From Hydrogenophaga sp. (lineage in GTDB: Bacteria; Pseudomonadota; Gammaproteobacteria; Burkholderiales; Burkholderiaceae_C): DNA of 64,000 nucleotides. Position 1 is the stretch's first letter; each line of letters begins with the position of its first letter. The translations under genes were made by a program, and so were the position numbers. The notes beneath the pieces are model-generated. The model saw nothing but the letters and a program-made list of their open reading frames with translations. It did not search any database and had not been told where the DNA came from. Positions 42,966-52,020 of the stretch are shown piece by piece. The DNA lies in contig JAUXNG010000102.1 of NCBI GenBank assembly GCA_030682835.1, positions 1-64,000 on the forward strand, read 5' to 3'.

Positions 42966-43709
42966 TCACGCGATCTTGTTGTCCCTGAAGCCACGCACTG
43001 CCTTGCGGATCTTCGACTCCAGCACCTGCGGGAAGTGGTGCATGACCGAATCGACAATATCGTCGTCAGGGAGGTCCTCGCGAAGAAGCTCGAGCACGAG
43101 CATGTTGACCTCTTTTATCTCCTTCAGCCGAAGCTCGCGAGCTCGAGCTTCGAGCGCTTCAATGCCGGCAAGCCTGCATGCATCAATCACTGCTGCGCCA
43201 TTGGATCCCGGCACCTCCTGGTACACGAATTCATTGAGCAGGGTGATGTGGTCAGCGAACTCGTGGTACGCCGGATGCACCCACTCAAAATCTCCAGCTG
43301 CGGCCGGGTAAGCCACAGCAGCAGCAGAGCGATCCTTCCTACAGTCGTAACTGCCCTTCCTGTGATTGCAGCGCTTGCAAGTGAGGATCAGATTCTTCGG
43401 CTCGAATCTGAAGGCTGGATAGCCTTTCGTGACGCGGCGATCGCTTTGAGAGTTGCTAACGGCACGTTGAACAGACGTTCCCAGCGCCCCTTTTGGGAGG
43501 ATGTGATCAAGCTCGCGAAGGCCAATCTCGTTTTTGATCAGCCGTTTGCAGTAGGCACACCGCGAGCCCTGTACCTCGATCAGGTATTCGACAAGAGCGT
43601 CCTTGGCTGCCGAGACAGCAGCGGCGGTCCAATCGTCACCACGTGCAAGCGCCGCCGCGAGACCGTCAATGGCTGGCTTCGGATATTTGGTGATGTCAAT
43701 CAACGGCAT
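42966..43709 (-). CDS. HNH endonuclease (PtuB-like)
   Basis: CAYCKRLIKNEIGLRELDHILPKG...NLILTCKRCNHRKGSYD; start at MPLIDITKYPKP preceded by GAAGG; adjacent to ATPase. Confidence 0.82.
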   Translation of the reverse strand: MPLIDITKYPKPAIDGLAAALARGDDWTAAAVSAAKDALVEYLIEVQGSRCAYCKRLIKNEIGLRELDHILPKGALGTSVQRAVSNSQSDRRVTKGYPAFRFEPKNLILTCKRCNHRKGSYDCRKDRSAAAVAYPAAAGDFEWVHPAYHEFADHITLLNEFVYQEVPGSNGAAVIDACRLAGIEALEARARELRLKEIKEVNMLVLELLREDLPDDDIVDSVMHHFPQVLESKIRKAVRGFRDNKIA

Positions 43710-43767
43710 GTTTAGAACCTTCAGATGCAGAGGTCTGGGGAGGGGGCTAAAAGTCCAGGCCTGCAAC

Positions 43768-45135
43768 TCAGGCTTCGCCGAGCTCAATGATTGCTTCGAT
43801 GGCGGGCACGATCACGTCGTCTGGTGGCAGCTCTTTCAGCAGTTCCTTGAGCACGGCACATGCTTGACGCAATCGAGCCTTGTCCCCTCCCTTGGTCTTG
43901 AGTAAGTCAAGAGCAGTTGCGACCGCCTTGCTTAGTTCCGGCGCACGAACCGTCTCCATGTCGAATCGCTCCTCGAGGACGGTGCTCGGGAGCCAGCCAT
44001 GGACGGCTTCGCTTGGCACGACTTCAATGCTGCCGTCGTCTTCGTTCCGTCTGAGCCCGATCAGCGAGCCTTCTGAGCTTTGCACGCCGGAAGCAACAAG
44101 CGGCGAATGAGTAGCGATGACTATGTGGCACTTCTTCGCACAAGCAAGAGAGCGTCGCAGCAGGCTGATGTAGTCCCTTTGCCACTCTGGATGAAGGCTG
44201 TTCTCCGGTTCATCGATCAGTACCAAAGAATCGTCCTTCACGCACAGCGAAAGGTTCAACAGGTTGTTCAATATTTGCAATTGACCGGAGCTGAGATCGT
44301 CCACGCTCACACCATCAGCAGCCGCAGGTTGCTTCCCTTTGGTGGAGAAAAACTTCAAGTCTGCAACGTTGAGCATGCCCGCTTTGAGGTAAGGCACCAA
44401 CCATTTGTGCTTCTTGATCTCGACTGCTCCCTTTTCGTCGAGACTTATCACGAGGTCTTGCGTGTAGAGAACTTCCTTGATTGCCGAATCAACGTCCAGG
44501 CTATTCAGGAACTGCCGCATTTCTTCAGCAAATGACGCCTCTGAGCTCCGCAGGTTCGAGAGGACCTTGTCAGCGTACAGCCGAAGGCCTTTAGCACCCT
44601 TGGTGACGTCGTCGACGCCTCGTCTGGGCGCCAATACGGCACGTACCTCGGTTGTAAATCCCAAGCACTGAAGAACAGCCGAGACGCTCTTGGCGCGCTC
44701 GGCGCCAGCGATCGGGTTCTCGAGCATGGACAGCAGGAGACCCGCAGCCATTCTTCCTCGACCGGCAACGTTGCCTGCGTAGCGAGGGCCGAAATAGGAG
44801 AAGTTGTCGAGATCAAACCCGCTCAAAGGACGAGTAATCTGCGCGCCCACGACCTGTGGAAATCGATCGCTATATGTTCCCGAAGCAGCAAGCACGTAGC
44901 GTACCGGATCAGACGAATTCAACGTGGCCGTAGACAACCATTTGCTGCTCGTTCTGTACGAAGTCCCGTTGAGCGCCGCACTCGTGATCAGTCGGAGCAG
45001 CACGCTCTTGCGGGTTCCGTTCTCCCCGCTCAGCACGGTGATCCAATTGCCGGTCTCGTTCGCACTCGGTTTCACGGCAAACGGGATAGATCTTGGTAGG
45101 CCGGGCCCTTCCAAATTTATGGTCAGAACTCTCAT
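43768..45135 (-). CDS. AAA_21/OLD-like ATPase (PtuA-like)
   Basis: MRVLTINLEGPGLP...VLSGENGTRKSVLLRLI (variant Walker A), LSSGQLQILNNLL signature, LVLIDEPENSLHPEWQ Walker B, ATHSPLVA. Confidence 0.85.
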   Translation of the reverse strand: MRVLTINLEGPGLPRSIPFAVKPSANETGNWITVLSGENGTRKSVLLRLITSAALNGTSYRTSSKWLSTATLNSSDPVRYVLAASGTYSDRFPQVVGAQITRPLSGFDLDNFSYFGPRYAGNVAGRGRMAAGLLLSMLENPIAGAERAKSVSAVLQCLGFTTEVRAVLAPRRGVDDVTKGAKGLRLYADKVLSNLRSSEASFAEEMRQFLNSLDVDSAIKEVLYTQDLVISLDEKGAVEIKKHKWLVPYLKAGMLNVADLKFFSTKGKQPAAADGVSVDDLSSGQLQILNNLLNLSLCVKDDSLVLIDEPENSLHPEWQRDYISLLRRSLACAKKCHIVIATHSPLVASGVQSSEGSLIGLRRNEDDGSIEVVPSEAVHGWLPSTVLEERFDMETVRAPELSKAVATALDLLKTKGGDKARLRQACAVLKELLKELPPDDVIVPAIEAIIELGEA

Positions 45136-45742
45136 TGTCCTTTTCGAACCTCAGGGGCTTCTTCTTCCAATATCAGCAGGCCAATAGCGCTAACGCGCTC
45201 GAACCAGTTGTCAGTGTATCGGCCACCCAAAGGCGACAACCGGTGCATTCAGTCCGCCGAGCATAGCTGCGATCAGGCTCGACTGCCCGCAGGCTCTCAG
45301 CAGCCGGAGCTCGTGAATGTAGAGCCGCGACCAAGCGCTCTTGTGCTCTCTGCCGCCCGGTGTCTGCTTAGGCGAATCAGTTGAGGCTGAAGGACGCTGG
45401 CGGGGTACGGTAGCGGTCAACTGGCCCTGGGAGGCAACTGTCCGCAGTCTCTGCACAGCCGAACTTGAATAATCGAAAGTCGCTTGAAGCGTGGGTGCGG
45501 ACCTTCAGAGCATTATCCTCGACTGACTGCGTGTGACCCTAAACTGCCCGAGTTTGTTTGCTCACAAGCGGCAGTTCGGCGCTAGCAGAGACAGTCGTAG
45601 GCGTTCAAATCAAGCTGTGTGCCGTGGAAGCGTTCGGTTGTGCTGCCGGTGGGCAAGTGCTTCGCGCTATATTAATAGTTACAAACGTGCGCAGGCTTGG
45701 CGCAGATTGGGCGGCACTCAATACGAAGGCGAAGGGGAAGAC

Positions 45743-47629
45743 TTGGTAGATTCAGTTCCGATCATTTCGGCGAGAGAGTTTGCTACCGCGTTCGCGCTTA
45801 GGCCGAACCTGGTTGCCTGGTTTCTTGGGGCGGGCGCATCAGCGGCGTCGGGTATCCCGACCGGGTACTCGATGATTCGAGACTTCAAGGCCCAAATCTT
45901 TTGCAGGGAGAAGAACCTCTCAAAGCGCGAAATTGATACCGGAGATCCGGTGTGGACTGAGAGAATAGATGCCTTCTTCCGAGGGACGTCACTACTGCCC
46001 CCGGACGGGAATCCCACGGAATACGCGAAGGCGTTCGAAGCGGTCTATCCACATGCTCGGCTGCGCCGCCAGTACATCGACGACGCCATCAAGAAGGGCA
46101 CGCCATGCTACGGCCACAAGGTTCTTGCGAGCCTGATGGCAGCCCGGAAAGTCGATTGCGTCTTCACCACGAACTTCGACCCATTGGTGGAGGATGCGGC
46201 TGTTGCGGCCAACGCGTTGCTTCCAGTGTTTGAGCAGTGCCGCCCCACGGTTGCGGCCATCGACTCTGCCGAGCGGGCTAAACGATGTCTCACGGAGTCG
46301 GACTGGCCCCTGGTGGCGAAGCTCCATGGCGACTACCAGTCGGTCGAGATCAAGAACACCAACTCCGAGCTGGAGAAGCAGGACGTGTGCATGCGCCATG
46401 TACTTGTGGAGGCGAGTCAGCGCTTTGGCATGGTGTTCGTCGGCTATAGCGGTCGAGACACCTCTGTGATGGATGCGTTGAACGCCGTCCTGAAGGAGAC
46501 CACGCCGTTCCCCAACGGGCTCTATTGGGTCGCTTCATCGGCGTCAAGACTCCTGCCCGCGGTGGTCGAGTTCCTCGAGAACGCACAACTCGCTGGTGTC
46601 GACGTCGCCGTGGTCGATTGCAAGACGTTTGACGAGTTGGCCGCAGACCTTCTGAAGCATGTAGACCTCCCCCAAGTGCTTATGGAACACTTGATGCAGG
46701 GGAGGACAGCTCCGCGCCTGGTCCCCGTGCAATTGCCGGAGAGCGAGGCACGCCCCTTTCCCGTTTTACGGTACTCGGCCTTGCTGATCGAGTCTATGCC
46801 AAGGACTGCCCGCCGGGTCACGCTCAACCAGGTCACGACCTCGCCGGCCGTTCGAACGATGCTGAAGGCGCAATCCGTAAGGGCCGCGGTCGCCGCCAAT
46901 GGCAAGGAACTCGCAGTATTCGGTAAGGACGAGGCGATCTTGGCGGCACTCGCTCCGCTGGGAGCAAAACTGGCCGGAACTGTCGAATTGGATGCCACTC
47001 GCGACAGTTGGGCCCTTGGCCTGCTCTACGACGCGCTGGTCCAGGCGCTGTCTAGGCACCGCCCGCTGGCGCCTAGGCTCCGGAGCTTTGGACACTCATT
47101 GGTCGTGGCGTCGCCTCGAGATGGGGAAGACGAGCTGCGCGCGAAGAAGCGCGCGGAGGACCTTGCAGCACTCAAGACGGCCTACGCCAGTGCGCTGACC
47201 GGCACTGAACAGAAAACCGGCCTTCCTTTCCAGGAAGGCATATTCCTGAAGCTCGAGCAGATCGATGAACGATGGTGGTGCGGCTTCGAGCCGTACACAT
47301 TCGTACAGGTCCCTCGAGAGGAGCGCACGGCGGCGCCGGAAGGCGATCAGTCCAGCGCAGAAGAGGACGGGCTTGGACTGCCGCAAGAGCGTCGTGGCGG
47401 TGATCCGGTTGGCGACTGGCGCAGGGAGCGATGGTTCAACCGACGTAACAAGGAGTGGGCGGCCATCATCGAGGGTTGGGTCCAGATGCTGACCTCGACA
47501 AGGGACGGGACGATGCGCGCTTTTGGCGTCGCTGATGGCGCGGGTATCGACGCTGTGTTCACCGTGTCGCGCATGACGGGCTGGAGTAGGCCTGGCCACC
47601 ATCACGGCTACTTCGAGAGGACCTCGTGA
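45743..47629 (+). CDS. SIR2-APAZ protein (short-pAgo partner, SPARSA-type)
   Basis: SIR2 motifs FLGAGASAASGIPTGYSMI, TTNFDPLVEDA, KLHGDY, FVGYSGRD; APAZ-like C-term GLPFQEGIFLKLEQIDERWWCGFEPYTFV...RERWFNRRNKEWAAIIEGWVQML; likely TTG start after AGGGGA. Confidence 0.88.
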   Translation: MVDSVPIISAREFATAFALRPNLVAWFLGAGASAASGIPTGYSMIRDFKAQIFCREKNLSKREIDTGDPVWTERIDAFFRGTSLLPPDGNPTEYAKAFEAVYPHARLRRQYIDDAIKKGTPCYGHKVLASLMAARKVDCVFTTNFDPLVEDAAVAANALLPVFEQCRPTVAAIDSAERAKRCLTESDWPLVAKLHGDYQSVEIKNTNSELEKQDVCMRHVLVEASQRFGMVFVGYSGRDTSVMDALNAVLKETTPFPNGLYWVASSASRLLPAVVEFLENAQLAGVDVAVVDCKTFDELAADLLKHVDLPQVLMEHLMQGRTAPRLVPVQLPESEARPFPVLRYSALLIESMPRTARRVTLNQVTTSPAVRTMLKAQSVRAAVAANGKELAVFGKDEAILAALAPLGAKLAGTVELDATRDSWALGLLYDALVQALSRHRPLAPRLRSFGHSLVVASPRDGEDELRAKKRAEDLAALKTAYASALTGTEQKTGLPFQEGIFLKLEQIDERWWCGFEPYTFVQVPREERTAAPEGDQSSAEEDGLGLPQERRGGDPVGDWRRERWFNRRNKEWAAIIEGWVQMLTSTRDGTMRAFGVADGAGIDAVFTVSRMTGWSRPGHHHGYFERTS

Positions 47630-49082
47630 TGGCGACGCCTGCACATGCGGCACAACTGGCGCCGTACACCCTTCTGGACGAGCCACTGCTCTCCTTCTCT
47701 CCTTCGGACGATTCCAAGGTTGATGTGCACCCCCTGCGGGGCCTCATCAACCATGGCCCATATTCCCAAGGCTCCTTCGGTGGCTATACGCCTCAGGTGC
47801 GCGTAGCCACAGTGGGCCCTGTGGGCGCGTTCTATCAGCGCGGCGAACTCATGAAGTTGCTGCAGTGCTCGCATCGCCCCGGAGACCGCGCCGAGTATGT
47901 GCCCCCGTACCCAGGATTCGAAGCCTTATTCCGTGTGCAGCTGGTCGGCGCGGGGAAGGGGGCCCACATCAAGTGGCCGGATTCCCTCGGTCAGCTCCCA
48001 GGTGAGGGTGATGCTCAGCAGCGGCTGTTCCAGGCTATGGACGCCGCTCTGCGAAGGCTAGAGGCGCAGCGGAACGAGTTCGACGTCGTCCTAGTCCACT
48101 TTCCTGATTCGTGGTTGCCGATGACGAAAACCAGGACGTTCGATGCCCATGACGCTCTGAAGGCACTGGGGGCCAAGTACAACATCCCCACCCAGGTTCT
48201 CAACGACCGGGTATTCACCTTCAACTACAAGGCATCCTTGGCCTGGCGTCTCGCGACTGCGCTGTATGTGAAAGCAGCAGGCACCCCTTGGAAGCTAGCT
48301 CCGCTCCCAGGTGTTCCGAAAGACACCGCATACATCGGGCTTGCGTACGCGCTTCGTGGCGACCAACGGAACGCCCACTACGTGACCTGCTGCTCTCAGG
48401 TGTTCGACATGGATGGCGGCGGGATGCAGTTCGTCGCCTTCGAGGCGCGAGACCCAGTGGCGGACGTAGCAGAGGCCCGGCGGAACCCTTTTCTGAGCCG
48501 TCATGACATGCGTGCCGTGCTTGCTCGGAGTCTGGCGCTTTACCAGGGCCGCAATGGCGGCAACCTTCCCAAGCGCCTCGTGATCCACAAGAACACAGCG
48601 TTCAAGCACGAGGAAGTCGAGGGGGCCTTCGACGCCTTGACCGGGGTGCCTGAAATCGAATGTATCGAGGTCGGCGCCGCGTCTTGCTGGCGAGGCGTCT
48701 GGCTGCTCGGGACTGGCCGGCGCACACCACCGCTGAGTAAGCCGGCCGCCTACCCAGTGCCGAGGGGAACGATGGTTGTCCGTTCGGGGAACTCTGCGCT
48801 TCTCTGGGTGGCTGGGAACGCGCCTGGCGTGTCCAACACGGGCAACTACTACCAAGGCAAGAAGAGCATCCCGAAACCGCTGCAGCTTATTCGTCATGCA
48901 GGTCGAGGGGGCTCGAACTCATTGCCCAAGAGGCACTGGCGCTATCCAAGATGGATTGGAACAACGATGCGCTGTACGACCCGGTCCCGGTCAGCATTCG
49001 TTACTCGAAGCGCTTGGCTCAAACAATCGCAAACGTGCCGGACCTTCCTAGCAGTGTTTATCCCTACAGGCTATTCATGTAA
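47629..49082 (+). CDS. Short prokaryotic Argonaute (MID-PIWI), apparent frameshift at 48907-48911
   Basis: TGATG overlap with SIR2-APAZ; VVLVHFPDSWLP, AYIGLAYALRGD..YVTCCSQVFDMDGGGMQFV, LPKRLVIHKNTAFKHEEVEGAFDAL; correct C-terminus LELIAQEALALSKMDWNNDALYDPVPVSIRYSKRLAQTIANVP...YPYRLFM* lies in another frame. Confidence 0.88.
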
Positions 49083-49105
49083 CCTGATTCTTGAGGAGCA
49101 GCCAA

Positions 49106-50087
49106 ATGGACTGGGATGACTATCTCGATGACAGCGAACTCGGTAACCTTCCCCCCTGAAGCTTGGGGCAATGTGGCTGACGTGGATGGACCGTTCGATC
49201 CGAACGACGTTTGGATGAAGAGCGCAGACGAGGACGAGCAGCGTATCGCAATGCGGGAATGGTTCACAGCCCGCTACTGCGACCCCGCACACGAGACGCC
49301 ATACAACGGTCGGGAGGGCGGACACCTTTTCATCAATGGAGGGCCGTATAACCCGTCAGATGAGCTGCACACCCGGTTTGGAACGCTCGTGCATGGGGAT
49401 GTGATCCAGGATGTTGCGAATGAACTGGTGATGGAAGTCGGAGACGAGTGGGCGCCGATCCTTCGCGAGCCCCCTCCCGACTACTACGACGAGCGCTTCG
49501 AACTGGAGTCTGTCGGACCAGACGGCCCTTTGCTTCGCGCCAGAGAGCGCATCGCGGAACTGAGCATGACGCTGGGTCTGCAGTCGAACCCGACCGCGCG
49601 ACCTCTAGTTGCGCGTCTGGTCTTCAGCGCCCACATCGGTGTCTTGGAGTCGTTTCTTTGGGAGACCGCCCAGCACTGGATCAGCACTCGCCCGGAGGTT
49701 CTCCAGCGATGCGTTGAACGGCTCCTGGTCTTCAAAGAACAGAAGTTCAATCTCAGTGAGGTGTACGAGCAGCACGCAAAGATCGAGGCTACTGTGAAAG
49801 GCTACCTCCAGAACCTCGTCTGGCATCGGTGGGACCAGGTCGGCGCCCTTTACAGGGAGGCTCTGGACGTAAAACTTCCGAGCATCAAGTCCTTCCAGAC
49901 TCCGTTAGAGATCAGGCACCACATCGTTCACCGAAGTGGCACGGACAAGGCCGGCAACAAGATTGAGATAGACGATGCGGTCATTGCCAGACTCGCCGCC
50001 GACGTCGAAGCCTTCGCGGTGCAGGTCAACAAGGAATGCTCTGACAAGTTTGAACCGCCCCAGGGGCGCGGACGTTACTTGGCTTGA
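49106..50087 (+). CDS. Third gene of the pAgo operon: uncharacterised protein with HEPN-like Rx4H motif, apparent frameshift at C6 49151-49156
   Basis: GAGGAG RBS 7 nt upstream of ATG 49106 (MDWDDYLDDSELGNLPP); after +1 shift PPEAWGNVADVDGPFDPNDVWMKS...WFTARYCDPAHETPYNGREGGHLFINGGPYNP...EIRHHIVHRSGTDKAGNKIEI. Confidence 0.75.
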
Positions 50088-51487: not shown

Positions 51488-51499
51488 GGCTTTTCTGGT

Positions 51500-52020
51500 G
51501 GGCGCTGGGCTTCGACAGGCTCAGCCCGAACGGTGGTGGGCTCAACCTGATCGGTGTTGGGCTCCGCCCGAATGGTAGTGGGCTCTGCCCGAACGGCGTT
51601 GGGCTCCGCCCGAACGGGGGAGGGCTCAGTCTGAACGGGGGTGGGCTCAGCGCATAGGGTGGGGGACACTGCCCGGTGGGGGGGGTGGATTCAGCTTGTA
51701 GGGTATCGCAGGTCGCTGGAACGGGGTTGCGATCTGCAAGGACCGGCCCGGTATGGGGCGCATGAGATGTCTCGGCTCTGCAGGGCTTTTCGGTTGGCAC
51801 TGGGCTTCGACAAGCTCAGCCCGAACGGTGGTGGGCTCAGCCCGAACGGTTGAAGCTCGGCCCGAACGGTTGAGGCTCGGCTTGAACGGTTGGGGCTCAG
51901 CTTGAACCGGTAGGGACTTCCCCCGAGCAATGGGCACCCCGAACGGGCGGGTGCTCGGCCCGCACTTCGATCGGCTCAGCCCGTGTGGTGTGAGCCCCGG
52001 CCGAGTGGTGTTGGCCCGGG
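51500..52020. repeat. Degenerate tandem array of ~20 bp units
   Basis: gggcttcgacaggctcagcccgaacggtggtgggctcaacctgatcggtgttgggctccgcccgaatggtagtgggctctgcccgaacggcg...; further units near 51795-51915 and 51955. Confidence 0.85.

Follow-up and report, generated by a model that had tools for sequence, protein, structure and literature searches.

Short Argonaute (pAgo) systems are usually treated as one sensor joined to one effector, and SPARSA has been described as a two-gene operon whose two proteins form a heterodimer (PMC10781750). The locus considered here raises the question of whether a SPARSA operon can carry a further effector. Within the window, by which we mean the whole 64,000-nt stretch of the Hydrogenophaga sp. 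contig, three genes lie on the + strand at positions 45743-50087, encoding a SIR2-APAZ protein, a short pAgo, and a HEPN-type protein to which we refer as gene 3. A previous sequence-only reading had singled out this arrangement as a candidate three-gene pAgo system, and we evaluated its components, its distribution, and its likely history.

The first two genes are, judged by their sequences, an ordinary SPARSA. The gene for SIR2-APAZ (45743..47629, + strand; 628 aa, TTG start) was assigned to the NADase effector subunit through PADLOC, phmmer, and motifs: its product matches the PADLOC model Aga_SIR2-PNTD1-PNTD2 with 724 bits, residues 8-529 match the SIR2 subunit of the SPARSA whose structure is solved (phmmer, E 1.6e-53), and the GAGAS, TTNFD, KLHGDY, and GYSGRD motifs are retained. 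The start of the short pAgo gene (MID-PIWI; 47629..49082, + strand) overlaps the SIR2-APAZ stop (TGATG); PADLOC identifies its product as pAgo_I with 584 bits, and the family profile matches the pAgo chain of the solved SPARSA structure (8in8_C, E 5.8e-191). The pair therefore shows the features by which SPARSA is recognized, a SIR2 domain fused to APAZ and, immediately downstream, a gene for a short MID-PIWI pAgo, and a role as a NADase heterodimer activated by guide RNA and target DNA is predicted. The SPARSA of Geobacter sulfurreducens (GsSir2/Ago) has the same gene order and overlap, and both of its core proteins match those of the window over nearly their full length. The sequence-only reading had named this pair as SIR2-APAZ and short pAgo, which the PADLOC matches bear out.

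Gene 3 follows closely. The pAgo stop codon lies at 49080-49082 and the native gene 3 start codon (ATG) at 49106, leaving a gap of 23 nt that contains a GAGGAG ribosome-binding site (49093..49098, + strand, identified in the sequence); neither a sigma-70-like promoter nor a + strand terminator-like site was present in this interval. The coordinates, spacing, and ribosome-binding site given in the sequence-only reading were all found as described, as were the W..RYCDP..ETPYNGREGG..GGPY region and the R267-HHIV-H272 motif of the product, and the single frame correction that it had applied to obtain a 326-aa protein was likewise upheld by the sequence.

Family profiles, the Rx4H motif, and a structure model together led us to annotate gene 3 (49106..50087, + strand; main open frame 49116-50087) as a HEPN/RES-NTD1 + HEPN protein. 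The N-terminal ~100 aa form an NTD1 domain with an EGG..GGPY core, and the predicted HEPN catalytic motif, RHHIVH, occupies residues 267-272 of the 323-aa frame (49914..49931, + strand, located by alignment). Two alignments of gene 3 relatives (n = 44 and n = 36) show no variation at R267, H272, or R273, so the motif is no chance occurrence. Among the 36 aligned relatives, 28 match HEPN/RES-NTD1 (PF18870) at E < 0.01 and 19 match the HEPN profile PF18735 (best E 1.1e-11). Taken alone, the window protein falls below the Pfam cut-offs, matching HEPN_RES_NTD1 weakly (E 0.044) and not reaching PF18735, and profile support is accordingly support for the family. The structure model is all-alpha or mostly helical (pLDDT 89); a Foldseek search of it against the PDB returned no significant HEPN match, and in a comparison with viral models the second match was a MAE-28990-like HEPN protein with a probability of 0.93 but an E-value of 0.23. 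A PDB sequence search using the gene 3 family profile returned chance-like matches only, and gene 3 itself had no PADLOC or NCBIfam match. One distant relative matched PADLOC Aga_Nuclease at E 6e-5, which is too weak to be used for classification. Gene 3 is therefore HEPN-type at the level of its family; because the PDB fold search was insignificant and the profile matches are those of the family, RNA cleavage by R267 and H272 is something that we infer. The HEPN assignment of the sequence-only reading thus stands at family level.

A complete cassette with intact frames was identified in Achromobacter mucicolens (L018), where the gap between pAgo and gene 3 is 22 nt. Amino acid identity between the window and this genome is 83% for SIR2-APAZ, 90% for pAgo, and 75% for gene 3. 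Nucleotide similarity (blastn) is confined to a single block at 45742-50046 with sharp boundaries at both ends and unrelated flanks. The three genes have similar dS (1.48, 1.23, and 1.19 for SIR2-APAZ, pAgo, and gene 3, respectively) and dN/dS values of 0.07, 0.05, and 0.12, and the NTD1 and HEPN halves of gene 3 are alike in their substitution rates. Similarity limited to the cassette, comparable dS, and dN/dS of 0.05-0.12 together indicate that gene 3 and SPARSA have been inherited jointly and kept by purifying selection. In the gene 3 tree, the window and Achromobacter sequences form a clade with 100/100 support that is nested among genes without pAgo, which points to one recruitment of gene 3. 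The three genes have thus travelled and diverged together, for which one initial recruitment of gene 3 is the simplest origin. The cassette also has a G+C content of 0.59-0.61, compared to ~0.69 in its surroundings, so that it was probably acquired; comparison with a genome of the same genus did not locate an empty cassette site. Among 43 Achromobacter species genomes searched, A. mucicolens alone carried gene 3.

We then considered how gene 3 and SPARSA are distributed apart from one another. Scanning 84,980 species genomes recovered 80 gene 3 relatives, 35 of which matched across both domains, and no pAgo was detected beside 34 of these 35 full-length relatives. The same held for gene 3 relatives on plasmids, in same-order genomes, and on viral contigs, although some of all these contigs are short and may hide a few. 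Phages, plasmids, and IMG/VR yielded no further cassette: the relatives of gene 3 recovered there had no pAgo, and the SPARSAs had no gene 3. Other defence genes are found beside some relatives, including Gabija (L022), E1-E2 (L013, L023), and dCTP deaminase (L013). The occurrence of relatives without pAgo in dozens of genomes suggests that the family can work without it. Conversely, SPARSAs with pAgo identities of 77-79% in Rhizobium and on IMG/VR contigs L169 and L170 lack gene 3, as do more distant SPARSAs. As gene 3 resides mostly elsewhere and close SPARSAs do without it, it appears to be an add-on of one lineage and no established core component. The sequence-only reading had presented gene 3 as a pAgo-linked component and had proposed looking for its recurrence; an intact cassette did turn up in Achromobacter, but nearly all relatives stand without pAgo, a distribution that the reading itself had named as speaking against its interpretation. 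Separately, a Duganella genome carries two diverged NTD1-HEPN genes in tandem (L026, 6704-9008).

Several described systems resemble parts of this cassette. The pairing of HEPN/RES-NTD1 with HEPN was described in 2013 in the HEPN survey of Anantharaman et al. (PMC3710099), and the MAE_28990/MAE_18760 proteins reported there share the two-domain architecture of gene 3; these were described without an Argonaute, whereas here the gene belongs to a pAgo operon. Proteins that combine an alpha-helical domain with a TM, TIR, HEPN, or PD-(D/E)XK domain are known from downstream of long-B pAgos (PMC10954474), and the BPAN, BPAS, and BPAM systems and those of the AfAgo-Af1317 type, HEPN included, likewise have a downstream gene of the alpha-helical plus toxin type (PMC10620215, PMC10954474). 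Those systems employ a long-B pAgo and no APAZ effector, whereas PADLOC places the window pAgo in class I of the short pAgos and it is accompanied by a NADase; with this partner already present, the effector contributed by gene 3 would be the second. A short pAgo system of three genes has also been described (PMC10781750), but it targets the cell membrane and does not combine a SIR2-APAZ NADase with HEPN. The cassette departs from two-gene SPARSA in its co-inherited, HEPN-type third gene. The open-access literature that we searched yielded no account of SPARSA with a HEPN gene, in agreement with the sequence-only reading, and the combination is provisionally new.

Other genes were found in the position behind pAgo. 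In Hyphomonas atlantica (L071, 2916-8245; also L073-L075), a RES toxin gene, TIR-APAZ, a short pAgo, and an NTD1 protein are encoded consecutively. The NTD1 protein (505 aa) begins 12 nt downstream of the short pAgo and has a helical C-terminal part, with hydrophobic segments in several relatives; we consider this run a candidate SPARTA variant in which the C-terminus of the NTD1 protein is possibly membrane-active. A PIN-domain gene overlaps a SPARSA pAgo by 4 nt in genome G387 (L109, 5489-6697), a second candidate for an arrangement of SPARSA with an RNase, and a HamA gene lies 75 nt downstream of a SPARSA pAgo in G402 (L115). An NTD1-RES toxin gene is divergent from a long-B pAgo in G978 (L148, 643-3366). 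The position downstream of pAgo thus resembles a slot that different accessory genes can fill, although the small numbers and the tendency of defence islands to bring together chance neighbours make this idea only a lead. Two further observations concern genes downstream of pAgo. In G536 (L120, 2984-3469), the gene that follows a SPARSA pAgo after 37 nt encodes a protein of 161 aa that has a RHIM-like motif (SIQIGDHNTQN) and ends in a hydrophobic, glycine-rich stretch. On a Rhizobium ruizarguesonis plasmid (L104, 9676-10332), a SPARSA neighbours QatABCD, and an Abi_2-like HEPN gene lies 1.2 kb downstream of its pAgo.

The copy in the window is itself interrupted. Relative to the intact Achromobacter copy, the pAgo gene lacks one base near 48909, which shifts the reading frame of its final 56 codons (48915-49082), and a surplus T follows C6 at 49157 in gene 3. 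The sequence-only reading had listed neither the missing pAgo base nor the site of the insertion. The two shifted ORFs, 47626-49119 and 49116-50087, share an ATGA overlap, and an automatic annotation would therefore present them as two seemingly intact genes. These two single-nucleotide changes mean that the window copy may be decaying or mis-sequenced. One may postulate that it is a decaying pseudogene in which pAgo is truncated, the native start of gene 3 is cut off, and the products are inactive, a scenario that is compatible with the other readings. Both indels are visible against the intact Achromobacter sequence, and neighbouring long ORFs (hydrogenase genes, an RND pump) are open, both of which favour decay; coding conservation is as high downstream of each break as upstream, however, with the last part of pAgo 93% identical to Achromobacter, which fits sequencing error or very recent inactivation. 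Both breaks also adjoin runs of G or C in a draft assembly (104 contigs, 87% complete), consistent with sequencing or assembly error, and an in-frame start for gene 3 is still possible at 49116. We regard decay as plausible but on balance doubtful.

The explanation of the cassette as a whole that we favour, although we judge it to be about evenly poised between right and wrong, is that a single lineage of SPARSA took up, directly downstream, a mobile abortive-infection RNase of the NTD1-HEPN type as a second, layered effector. The cassette would be transcribed as one unit; the guide-directed short pAgo and SIR2-APAZ NADase would deplete NAD+, and the HEPN domain, activated during infection by its own NTD1 domain, would cleave RNA beside this depletion without being an obligate SPARSA subunit. 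Gene 3 is probably layered and self-triggered in this manner, with direct coupling to pAgo possible; no demonstration of an autonomous NTD1 trigger was found in the literature for any member. The intact Achromobacter cassette with its unrelated flanks, the purifying selection, the nested gene 3 clade, the relatives without pAgo, the close SPARSAs without gene 3, and the other third genes all count for this explanation, while the occurrence of the cassette in only two genomes, the two frame breaks, the insignificant PDB fold match, and the sub-threshold Pfam scores count against it. The sequence-only reading had proposed a second RNase effector or regulator coupled to the NADase/pAgo module; the HEPN-type family of gene 3 and the recurrence of the three genes are borne out, and the coupling to pAgo is conjectural.

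Alternatively, gene 3 may be a true third component of SPARSA, in which the activated complex or NAD+ depletion switches HEPN on through NTD1, giving one sensor and two effectors. The tight operon position, co-inheritance in two genera, the NTD1 proteins beside the Hyphomonas and long-B pAgos, and the downstream helical effector proteins of long-B systems (PMC10954474) would fit such a scheme, but nearly all NTD1-HEPN relatives have no pAgo nearby, closely related SPARSAs lack gene 3, and SPARSA works as a two-protein heterodimer (PMC10781750); we consider it possible but rather unlikely. Less likely still is the broader proposal that a guide-directed short Argonaute drives both SIR2 NAD+ depletion and HEPN RNA cleavage, with NTD1 an adaptor recruited to pAgo loci more than once, joined to HEPN in this cassette, to a membrane-type protein in Hyphomonas SPARTA, and to RES beside a long-B pAgo. 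That the two are mere neighbours, gene 3 having come to lie next to SPARSA within a defence island and been carried along with no functional link, seems improbable: its relatives are defence-island genes, the window cassette adjoins Septu, and only two instances are known, but the similarity ends where the cassette ends, all three genes have been under purifying selection over dS >1, and the 22-23 nt spacing has been kept. Other defence genes are known to work in layers or as guards, and the tight linkage to SPARSA would also suit a guard or regulator that is triggered only when a phage inhibits SPARSA or replenishes NAD+, or one that keeps SPARSA in check; the invariant catalytic motif argues for an enzyme over a pure regulator, and we hold this to be very improbable.

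The co-inherited RNase-type gene, together with the PIN and NTD1-protein parallels, suggests a slot for extra effectors behind pAgo. Under the layered explanation, a phage could not win by blocking or reversing NAD+ depletion alone, and the intact Achromobacter cassette makes the proposal directly testable. Directly upstream of the SPARSA cassette and divergent from it, in the same defence island but outside the cassette, lies a Septu-like pair (42966..45135, − strand) consisting of PtuA (43768-45135; PADLOC E 1e-51) and PtuB (42966-43787; PADLOC E 1e-25). On the other side lies a short dispersed repeat (window positions 51495-51850), for which a genome of the same genus has dozens of matching sites.
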